DNA of 64,000 nt. Source: Myxococcaceae bacterium (GTDB taxonomy: Bacteria > Myxococcota > Myxococcia > Myxococcales > Myxococcaceae). This document shows, one piece after another, positions 34,325 through 38,006 of the stretch; the first letter of the stretch is position 1; the number at the start of each line of letters is the position of its first letter. The stretch is taken from contig JAEUJQ010000018.1 of the NCBI GenBank assembly GCA_016793095.1, positions 1 to 64,000 on the forward strand, read 5' to 3'. The position numbers and the translations under genes are program-made. The notes under the pieces are model-generated. The model was not told the origin of the DNA and did no database searches. It was given only the letters and a program-made list of their open reading frames with translations.

Positions 34325-36730
34325 TCAGTCACGACCCGGGCTCACGGGCGCGAGCGCCACCTCGCGGGTCGTCCACCGCTCGACGTTCCACAGCAGCGAC
34401 TCGGCCTTGCCCAGCTCGGGGCCGTCGAGGTCGGCGCGCGTGGCGGCCATCTTCGACGCGAACACCAGGGGCACGACGCTGAGGCGCTTCGCCCACTCTT
34501 CGGAAAGCCGCGCCAGCAGGGCTTCGCGGCGCTCGTCGTACAACGTCGTCTTCAGCTTCGCGTTCAGCTCGAGCATCGGCGGCTCGTAGAAGCCGGGCAC
34601 GGGCGTGTCGGTCACGAAGGTGGCGCGCGCCTTGTCCCACGGGACGTTGAAGAAGCGCGCTGGCACCTCCACGCTCCGCGCGGTCAGGAGCAGCCCGCCG
34701 TGCGCGCGCGACAGGAACAGCGCGTTGCTGTCGGCGCCGCTGACGGCATCCACCTCGAGGCCAGCGGCGACCAGGTCGCTCGCGATTCGGCCGAGCAGGA
34801 GCGCCGGTGGGGTGCCCGGCTTCGCAGCCATCGACGACACCTTCACGCGCTTCAGCCCCGCCTCCGCGAGAGCCGCGCGCGCCGAGAGCGGATCATACGC
34901 GACGTCGAGCGCGCGCCCGTCTGGCGTCAGGCCGCGTGCGACGGAGGCGGGCACCGGTCGCAGCAGCGCCACGAGGGCCTCGCGGTCGATGGCCGAGAGC
35001 AGGGCGCGCCGCGTCGCCGCCGACTGGAGCCCCGGCACCGCGGGATCGACGTGCAGCACGTACAGCACCTCGCCGGGCTGGCTGTGCAGGGTGACGTCCG
35101 GGTTGTTCAGCAGGCCCTCCACGCCCTGCGCTCCGAGCCCCGGCGTGGCGTCGAGCTCACCAGAGGAGAGGCCGGGCCAGAGCTCGTCGCTCGAGCCGAA
35201 CACCGTCACCTCGACGCGCTCGAAGGCCGGGGTCGCGCCCGCGAAGAACGGGTTGCGCACGAACGAGGCCTGCTTGTCCGCTTCGAAGGTCTCGAGCACA
35301 TAAGGCCCCAGCGTCGGCGTGCCCGGAGTGGCCGAGGCCTGCGAGACCGCTTCGAGCCCGGCGTCGGTCGCCGCTGCGAGACGCAAGACGGGCGGGAGCA
35401 CGGTGAAGCCCTCGAGGTCGTCAGCGCGGCGGTCGGCGTACTCCACCTCGAGGGTGCGCTCGTCCACCACCCGGACGGAGCGGCGACGGGCGAGGGGCAC
35501 CACGGCCAGCGACGCCTCGAGGTCCTTCACCGTCAGCGGGGTGCCGTCGCTCCACTTGAGGTCGTTGCGAAGCCGCCAGCGGATGACGAGGCCGCCGTCA
35601 GGGAGCAGGCGCACGAGGCCGTTCGTCATCTGCGGCGCTTCCGTCACGAGCAGCGGCTCGAGCACACCCGCCGCCGTCCGGGTGACGAGGCCCCGACGCG
35701 TCAAGGGGAAGAGGCCCGCGCTCGTTGGCTGCTTCATGGCCCCTGCGAGGCCGAGGCGCAGCACCGTGCGTGCAGCCAGTCGGGTCGGAGGCGGCGGCCC
35801 GGGTTCGGGGAGGGGCGGTGGAGGCGGTCGCTCGAGCAGCGAGAGCACACCGAAGATCGCGACCAGCGGCGTCGCGAGCCCGAAGAGGCGGTCGACGCGG
35901 GCGACGGCGCGCGGGAAGCGCTCCTTCGCGTTGAAGCCCGCCACCGTCACCACGAGCGTCACGATGCACAGCACGTAGGCGCTGAGGAACAGCTTGTCGG
36001 CGATGACGAGGTACGAGACGTCGGGCAACGAGTCGGCCTGGCTGAAGTGGAAGGCGACGACCGACAGCAGGGCCGTCACGCCCATCGCCGAGCGCACCTC
36101 GAGCTCGCTGATGGGAAGGAAGAGGCCCAGCACGGCCATCAGCAGGATGACGCCGAGCGGCAACAGGAACTTGAGCAGGTACGGCGCCAGCGGCCGCGAG
36201 AGCTGGACGGTGAAGCGCACCCGCTCGAGCGAGGTGGTGTTTCCCTCGTGGGCGATGGAGCCGAAGTCCGAGCCGTAGGTGTGCGCGTCCACCCGTGGCT
36301 GAAACGAGCGCTCGTAGTCCCAGCCCGTGATGGAGAAGACCGGCGCCATGCCCGACGCCGCGAAGTCGGGGACGAGGTGGCCAGCCGTCGACGGGAGGGA
36401 CAGCTCGAGCGCCAGGGTCTGCGAATCGAACGGGAAGTCGTGGAGCGGGAACTCGCCGCGAAACGTCCCCTGCACCCGCCACTGCACCGTGCGCCAGTCG
36501 CCCTCGTTCTCCCGCGAGAGCTCCTCCTTCGAGTCCAGCTCGGCGTTGTCGAACAGGAGCGGCGGCGCGGTGTCGTCGCCCCTCCACTTGAGCCAGACGC
36601 GCGCGTCGCCCTTGAAGCGCCCGGCCTTCAGGTCGAGGTCCGAGACGTCGAGCAGGTACACCCCCACGTAGACCCGGCCCGGCTCAGCGGGCTGCGCTGC
36701 CAGCGCGGTCGCGAGCGCGAGGGTCAGCAC
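34325..36730 (-). CDS. Pentameric ligand-gated ion channel fused to a peptide-type periplasmic binding protein
   Basis: 801 residues from a GTG, with signal peptide. Residues about 18-180 are a pLGIC extracellular domain: VYVGVYLLDVSDLD (first strands), the cysteine-free Pro-loop FPLHDFPFDSQ (94-104) and ITGWDYERSF. M1 spans 181-206 with the conserved Pro191, M2 about 211-231, the M2-M3 loop has SLP (234-236), M3 237-265 and M4 281-300. M2 aligned to GLIC puts Glu211 at the -2' position and Leu222 at 9', pointing to a cation-selective pore with the usual gate. A Pro-rich linker (301-316) leads to a full SBP_bac_5 domain (about 342-801): DLKWSDGTPLTVKDLEASL, TLGPYVLETFE (474-483), AIDREALV (580-587). 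The pLGIC C-terminus faces the periplasm, so the binding domain is correctly placed to act as ligand sensor. No peptide ABC transporter genes are nearby. Confidence 0.9.
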   Translation of the reverse strand: MLTLALATALAAQPAEPGRVYVGVYLLDVSDLDLKAGRFKGDARVWLKWRGDDTAPPLLFDNAELDSKEELSRENEGDWRTVQWRVQGTFRGEFPLHDFPFDSQTLALELSLPSTAGHLVPDFAASGMAPVFSITGWDYERSFQPRVDAHTYGSDFGSIAHEGNTTSLERVRFTVQLSRPLAPYLLKFLLPLGVILLMAVLGLFLPISELEVRSAMGVTALLSVVAFHFSQADSLPDVSYLVIADKLFLSAYVLCIVTLVVTVAGFNAKERFPRAVARVDRLFGLATPLVAIFGVLSLLERPPPPPLPEPGPPPPTRLAARTVLRLGLAGAMKQPTSAGLFPLTRRGLVTRTAAGVLEPLLVTEAPQMTNGLVRLLPDGGLVIRWRLRNDLKWSDGTPLTVKDLEASLAVVPLARRRSVRVVDERTLEVEYADRRADDLEGFTVLPPVLRLAAATDAGLEAVSQASATPGTPTLGPYVLETFEADKQASFVRNPFFAGATPAFERVEVTVFGSSDELWPGLSSGELDATPGLGAQGVEGLLNNPDVTLHSQPGEVLYVLHVDPAVPGLQSAATRRALLSAIDREALVALLRPVPASVARGLTPDGRALDVAYDPLSARAALAEAGLKRVKVSSMAAKPGTPPALLLGRIASDLVAAGLEVDAVSGADSNALFLSRAHGGLLLTARSVEVPARFFNVPWDKARATFVTDTPVPGFYEPPMLELNAKLKTTLYDERREALLARLSEEWAKRLSVVPLVFASKMAATRADLDGPELGKAESLLWNVERWTTREVALAPVSPGRD

Positions 36731-36838
36731 GCGTCACCCAGGCTGCTGCGAGCGGCTCCGGTCGTTCGCCTCATGTCTGAGGTATAGCCGTCGCCCCGCG
36801 ATTGCGGCAGCGTCTCGCTCTCCACCAAAGGGGCTCCC

Positions 36839-37433: not shown

Positions 37434-38006
37434 TCACCAGCGCAGCCGGAACGCGACCTCGGGCCGGTCGGTGGGGCCGTCGAGCGTCACCTCACCCTGC
37501 GTGGCGAAGGCCTCGAAGGTGCCCTCGAAGACGCCGATGCGGTACCCGTTGATGACGGCGAGCTGCGCGGGGGAGATGGCGCTGCGGAACTCGTGACGAA
37601 CGCGGGTCTTCACCACGACCTCCGTCGGCCCGACGTCTTCCGTGTCGACGTCGAGGTAGTTGCCGGTGGTGCGAAGGTTGCGGCCCATGCGCAGGAACGT
37701 GCGCTTGAGGCCGATGACGCGCGCCATCGTGAGCGTCGCGAAGCCGACGGTCGTGGCCTTGTAGCCAGCCATGAACTCGCGGCCGACCCGCCGAAGCTGT
37801 TCGTCGGTGGCCTGGTCGGGGAAGAGCTCGTCAGCGAGCACGCCGATCGCCTCGAGGAACGGGGCCAGGGCATAGGCGGGCTGGAGCTGCTCGAGGTCGA
37901 ACCCGACGGCCTTCAGCTTCGTCATCAGGGCAGGCGTGAGCCGGGGACCGAAGGCCTTCCGGGCGCCCTCGGCGACGGTGCTGAAGACGACGGGCTCCTC
38001 GGTCAC
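37434..38006 (-). CDS. DUF2378 family protein (myxobacterial paralogous family)
   Basis: 190 residues with the layout of DUF2378/TIGR02265, a family of about 180-200 residues expanded in myxobacteria: FSTVAEGARKAFG at the start, then a helical region, MARVIGLKRTFLRMGRNLRT and the C-terminal beta part VINGYRIGVFEGTFEAFA. The fold resembles heme-NO/V4R-type sensory domains, but the function is not established. It is cytosolic. It converges with the unknown 36839-37423 gene, only ten bases between stops. Confidence 0.85.
   Translation of the reverse strand: MTEEPVVFSTVAEGARKAFGPRLTPALMTKLKAVGFDLEQLQPAYALAPFLEAIGVLADELFPDQATDEQLRRVGREFMAGYKATTVGFATLTMARVIGLKRTFLRMGRNLRTTGNYLDVDTEDVGPTEVVVKTRVRHEFRSAISPAQLAVINGYRIGVFEGTFEAFATQGEVTLDGPTDRPEVAFRLRW

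Follow-up and report, generated by a model that had tools for sequence, protein, structure and literature searches.

A pentameric ligand-gated ion channel with a C-terminal SBP_bac_5 solute-binding module in the Myxococcaceae

The fusion gene and its surroundings

The stretch of DNA analysed here, referred to as the window, covers positions 1 to 64,000 of contig JAEUJQ010000018.1 of a Myxococcaceae bacterium (assembly GCA_016793095.1). Its minus strand carries a single unbroken frame of 801 codons plus a stop, running from a GTG start at 36730 down to 34325 (34325..36730). As judged from domain matches and homologues, the encoded protein is a genuine pentameric ligand-gated ion channel (pLGIC) core joined to a genuine SBP_bac_5 solute-binding protein (SBP) domain. 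A sequence-only reading of this DNA had placed an uninterrupted 801-codon frame at these coordinates, leaving the strand unstated; translation showed both the coordinates and the frame to be correct, and every motif that it had quoted is found in the translated protein. Translation of the plus strand over the same interval gives another frame than that of the fusion gene. The GC content by codon position (0.73/0.49/0.93) is gene-like. All parts of the gene described below lie on the minus strand. The first 17 residues, VLTLALATALAAQPAEP (36680..36730), resemble a signal peptide, and the N-termini of the orthologues are equally short and hydrophobic.

Immediately upstream lies a putative leader ORF of 16 codons, MRRTTGAARSSLGDAC (36724..36774, minus strand), the stop codon of which overlaps the GTG start of the fusion gene (GTGCTGA). 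A −10-like box, TATACC (36781..36786, minus strand), is located 12 nt before the leader ATG. The box in the window precedes the leader ATG, and the boxes of the orthologues precede the GTG of the fusion gene itself; the arrangement in the window may be due to a difference of one base, or it may couple the translation of the two frames. Among the 15 fusion genes examined, nine carry a TANNNT motif 12–13 nt upstream of the GTG; in a tenth (L038), the motif is found 6 nt upstream of a CTG that was taken as the start. This placement of the box suggests a leaderless transcript made from the fusion gene's own promoter. No gene family was common to the neighbours of the fusion loci, save for the synteny of two loci of the same genus and a few scattered matches, and a Pfam scan of the window and of the orthologue neighbours revealed no ABC permease or ATPase nearby, a result that would be compatible with a partner encoded farther away. 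With no conserved neighbour and a TANNNT box before most of the starts, the fusion gene looks self-sufficient. As to individual neighbours, a TIGR02265/DUF2378 gene adjoins the fusion gene in the window (37437-38006, minus strand); it belongs to a family named for Myxococcus and, like the large high-GC genomes of the relatives, hints at a myxobacterial host. At one locus (L037:1597-3219(-)), the next gene after the fusion, within ~130 nt, is an MCP-signalling gene, and at another (L041:6491-7777(-)) it is a Na/H exchanger gene within ~53 nt; as single cases, these two are suggestive only.

The channel module

The ligand-binding (extracellular, i.e. periplasmic) domain of the channel (ECD) comprises residues 18-179 (36194..36679), as delimited by phmmer comparison with GLIC and by conservation in the fusion family, and is followed by a four-helix transmembrane domain (TMD; residues 180-300; 35831..36193). 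For the channel half, searches of the PDB retrieved GLIC and GLIC chimeras (E-values of 1e-9 to 1e-12), the main aligned stretch covering residues 81-299 and a weak additional one residues 16-51, and a profile built from the fusion family matched a GLIC/GABA-A chimera at 9e-18. The NCBIfam models LGIC_1 (3.5e-10, well under the curated cut-off of that model) and LIC (2.7e-10) also matched the channel half. The Pfam model Neur_chan_memb reached E=8.8e-4 in the window protein, which is under the curated cut-off, and both Pfam domains were matched at E<=0.01 in all 12 of the aligned fusion members. The assignment of a GLIC-type channel to residues ~18-300 is therefore significant by the PDB, NCBIfam and family-profile comparisons, the Pfam match to Neur_chan_memb being sub-cut-off; the domain search that the sequence-only reading had called for thus yielded matches to both modules.

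Several hallmarks of the prokaryotic Pro-loop receptors are invariant in the fusion family. These include F99, P100, F101, D102 and Q104 of the Pro-loop (FPxDxQ), R179 just before M1, and P236 of the LP motif between M2 and M3. The Pro-loop itself, FPLHDFPFDSQ (residues 94-104; 36419..36451), is cysteine-free, and its F94 and P95 are likewise invariant. The ECD as a whole shows a mean pairwise identity of 64%, with many invariant aromatic residues. Hydropathy analysis of the channel half gave three peaks plus an amphipathic M2, i.e. four transmembrane helices. The pore helix M2 (residues 208-232; 36035..36109), when numbered in primes by counting back from the conserved LP, has E/D at −2′, T at 6′, L at 9′, A at 13′ and F/Y at 16′, followed by an invariant D20′ and the LP turn. 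By analogy with GLIC-type channels, the acidic ring at −2′ suggests cation selectivity. The M3-M4 loop contains five Lys/Arg residues and the M2-M3 loop none, a distribution which, together with the four helices, places the C-terminus outside. From the known topology of pLGICs and this charge pattern, one expects the N- and the C-terminus alike on the periplasmic side, and hence the SBP would lie in the periplasm beside the ligand-binding domain. The helix count and loop charges thereby support the earlier suggestion that the topology allows a periplasmic binding protein after M4. A single-sequence AlphaFold model of the fusion (mean pLDDT 38.8) was too poor for use, and we therefore claim no contact between the SBP and the channel.

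The solute-binding module

A proline-rich linker of ~22 residues (residues 301-322; 35765..35830) connects M4 to the SBP module (residues 323-801; 34328..35764). Pfam SBP_bac_5 (PF00496) matched residues 378-676 of the fusion protein with E=1.2e-32 (114 bits against a cut-off of 32.4), and the best match of the fusion-family profile among solved structures was OppA (4e-24). The OppA alignment spans residues 74-475 of the 522 residues of OppA, and stand-alone SBPs align over residues 328-794 of the fusion. The sequence-only reading had described the binding protein as complete. This holds in that the module is aligned over nearly its full length (328-794), but the part preceding the VVDERT motif appears to be shorter than that of OppA.

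Asp419 of OppA is the residue that binds the amino group of the peptide. In the alignments with OppA and the fusion family, Asp occupies the corresponding column in nine of the 12 fusions aligned; one has Glu, L036 has Arg, and the window protein has Ser686 (34673..34675). The window protein thus lacks the OppA-like mark of peptide binding at this position, and because of this substitution the case for a ligand with a peptide amino-terminus is weaker for the window protein than for its relatives.

SBP_bac_5 domains were also met in another arrangement in the family. Proteins of ~1050-1120 residues encoded at L068:204-3377(+), L070:2297-5650(+) and L071:3218-6361(+) have two N-terminal transmembrane segments, an MCP signalling part and a C-terminal SBP_bac_5 domain (Pfam domains determined on L068 and L070), and most of the family's genomes have SBP matches in frames about as long. 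Since no transmembrane segment separates the MCP and SBP parts, the SBP is presumably on the MCP side of the membrane, that is, cytoplasmic, which is odd.

Distribution, origin and conservation of the fusion

The fusion was looked for first in 144 relatives and next in 96 genomes belonging to the same family, and the survey of the phylum comprised 195 genomes. Within the family, the fusion was found in 13 of the 96 genomes, at 15 loci in six genera, so that the fusion looked for in other genomes on the advice of the sequence-only reading is indeed present there. That reading had also raised the prospect of two separate genes in related genomes; what was found instead are uninterrupted fused genes at ten of the 15 loci (in eight genomes), four loci that are split at contig ends and for which both halves were recovered, and one locus, L047:5075-7415(-), in a draft genome that is 80% complete, where a frameshift near residue 453, either an error or genuine decay, breaks the fusion. 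The genome of the window carries a second full-length fusion on another contig, with 46% identity to the first. The most diverged copy, L036:914-3406(-), shares 37% identity with the window protein, has a Lys/Pro-rich C-terminal tail, and comes from a genome that also holds a further fusion, L035. Among the 195 genomes surveyed in the phylum, no fusion was found outside the family. In a scan of genome contigs with the window protein alone, the sole match was a weak one to the SBP, in a Clostridia contig, and no relative was found in the viral contigs searched. The fusion protein matched 313 plasmid records, none of them covering over 80% of it, and the ten that were listed are SBP-only.

A maximum-likelihood tree was computed from the 15 fused channels and 13 stand-alone pLGICs of the same family. 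All of the fused channels fell on one side of a branch with support of 100/99, apart from the stand-alone pLGICs. This single clade and the recurrence of the fusion in six genera point to a probable single origin of the fusion, followed by its retention. Among the stand-alone channels, one genome has two different pLGIC genes arranged head to tail and overlapping (L061:2943-5008(+)), which possibly form a heteromeric pair.

Conservation differs along the protein. Averaged over pairs of family members, identity peaks in M2 (0.78), is intermediate in the ECD plus TMD (0.63) and in the SBP (0.48), and is lowest in the linker (0.30); evolution is thus faster in the SBP than in the channel. Nei-Gojobori dN/dS values for pairs of close orthologues were 0.06-0.26 for the ECD, 0.11-0.19 for the TMD and 0.20-0.33 for the SBP (the comparison of the window protein with L035 was excluded, such estimates being unreliable at that divergence). 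In close pairs, both modules are under purifying selection, which is looser on the SBP, and these ranges indicate that the channel and SBP halves are both maintained.

Proposed mechanism and alternatives

On balance, we think it probable that the protein forms a homopentameric cation-conducting pLGIC in which each subunit bears a periplasmic SBP_bac_5 domain after M4 and ligand capture modulates gating, so that a single gene would provide a chemosensor. Gating controlled by the SBP is likely. A flexible linker of ~22 residues would keep the SBP close to the ligand-binding domain, and on ligand capture the two lobes of the SBP would close and alter its contacts with the extracellular domain of the channel. 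Alternatively, the SBP could concentrate the ligand around the inter-subunit site of the channel itself. By either route, the open probability would shift and lead to changes in membrane potential or cation entry. We weakly favour allosteric modulation over ligand hand-off. Speaking against modulated gating are the faster evolution of the SBP, the Ser that the window protein has in the Asp419 column, and the variable linker, which fits a tether better than a stiff lever. For bacterial pLGICs with N-terminal PBP-I fusions or operon-linked PBP-II proteins, it has been proposed that the binding proteins concentrate or sense the ligand (PMC549065). A more specific version of the proposed chemosensor would amount to a new receptor architecture. 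In it, five SBP_bac_5 clamps, tethered at the C-terminus and arranged about a single pentameric channel, would be the primary sensors, and their capture of ligand would open or close the pore, so that one gene would both bind a nutrient or signal and convert it into an ion current; the faster evolution of the SBP would let paralogues in the same genome sense different ligands. This version is quite possible but falls a little short of probable in our judgement.

Several other explanations can be considered. The SBP could hand its bound ligand to the orthosteric site of the channel, acting through local concentration without any lobe-driven gating. The flexible, poorly conserved linker would allow this, and the invariant aromatics and loop residues suggest that the ECD retains a binding site of its own, but SBPs of the SBP_bac_5 type usually bind ligands larger than the known pLGIC agonists, and we regard pure hand-off as unlikely, even though it is the role that has been proposed for fused and operonic PBPs (PMC549065). 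Slightly less probable still is a role of the SBP as an appendage, modulatory or structural, like the N-terminal lobes of DeCLIC, one that tunes kinetics or assembly and whose small-molecule binding was lost or never used. The extra domain of DeCLIC is highly mobile and modulates gating (PMC9897478), the SBP is less conserved than the channel, and the Asp419 column is Ser in the window protein. Against this, purifying selection acts on the SBP (dN/dS 0.20-0.33 between close orthologues), and Asp or Glu occupies the Asp419 column in ten of the 12 aligned members. Membrane-tethered SBPs are common in bacteria, and the channel half might then merely anchor the SBP in the membrane for an ABC importer. 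This would hardly explain why conservation in the protein peaks in the pore helix, nor the invariant ECD motifs, which are irrelevant to anchoring; with the pore conserved, neither an ABC permease nor an ATPase found by Pfam in the neighbouring genes scanned and no neighbour family common to the loci, we consider a mere anchor very improbable. Finally, a merger of two genes by sequencing or assembly error, which might be suspected from the 93-contig draft state of the window genome, the frameshift at residue ~453 in L047 and the four loci split by contig ends, is ruled out by the homologues at 15 loci, ten of which are unbroken fused frames in eight genomes that include the diverged paralogue of the window genome.

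Relation to known systems

With GLIC, ELIC and other prokaryotic Pro-loop pLGICs, the fusion shares the ECD and four-helix core, the cysteine-free Pro-loop, the acidic −2′ position and the LP motif between M2 and M3. GLIC-type prokaryotic pLGICs, ELIC included, are not known to have anything after M4, where the fusion has ~480 SBP residues. The SBP_bac_5 domain, which is of the PBP-II fold, is the same nearly end to end as that of OppA/DppA/NikA-type proteins; those, however, are secreted partners of ABC importers, whereas the SBP of the fusion is channel-bound and no ABC genes were found nearby.

The bacterial pLGICs described by Tasneem and colleagues include some that carry PBP-I domains at the N-terminus, some that carry MCP-N/Cache domains there, and some whose genes lie beside stand-alone PBP-II genes (PMC549065). 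As in the fusion, a periplasmic ligand-binding module is there coupled to a pLGIC, with the same proposed chemosensory logic, but the fused module sits at the N-terminus and is a PBP-I or Cache domain, and a separate gene encodes PBP-II, whereas here an SBP_bac_5 domain is C-terminal, after M4. DeCLIC also bears an accessory periplasmic domain, consisting of two β-rich N-terminal lobes, and is calcium-sensitive (PMC9897478). Its closed pore is constricted at L9′ and F16′ (PMC9897478), residues that the pore helix of the fusion shares; the DeCLIC lobes, unlike the module described here, are N-terminal and not an SBP. Within the window fusion, no accessory domain lies between the signal-peptide-like N-terminus and the ECD, which starts at residue ~18, the module being C-terminal. 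Ionotropic glutamate receptors, including prokaryotic ones, similarly combine a PBP-II-type domain with a ligand-gated channel (PMC549065, PMC2950845), but their unrelated tetrameric pore is inserted within the binding domain, whereas the fusion is a pLGIC with its own ECD.

The statement in the sequence-only reading that extra modules on bacterial pLGICs are N-terminal agrees with the published cases (PMC549065, PMC9897478). In a literature search of partial coverage, we found no C-terminal module and no SBP_bac_5 fusion on a pLGIC. The novelty consists in a known pLGIC core and a known SBP_bac_5 domain in a new order, and absence from the literature is not proof of it.

The C-terminal SBP breaks the pattern of N-terminal accessory modules on bacterial pLGICs, and the fusion has been kept in 13 genomes, some of which hold two divergent copies. 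Little is known of what bacterial pLGICs do in the cell or of which ligands they bind, and a recognisable SBP family gives a concrete handle on the ligand. The fusion would thus turn the operon-based proposal of cooperation between pLGICs and periplasmic binding proteins (PMC549065) into a testable case within a single protein.
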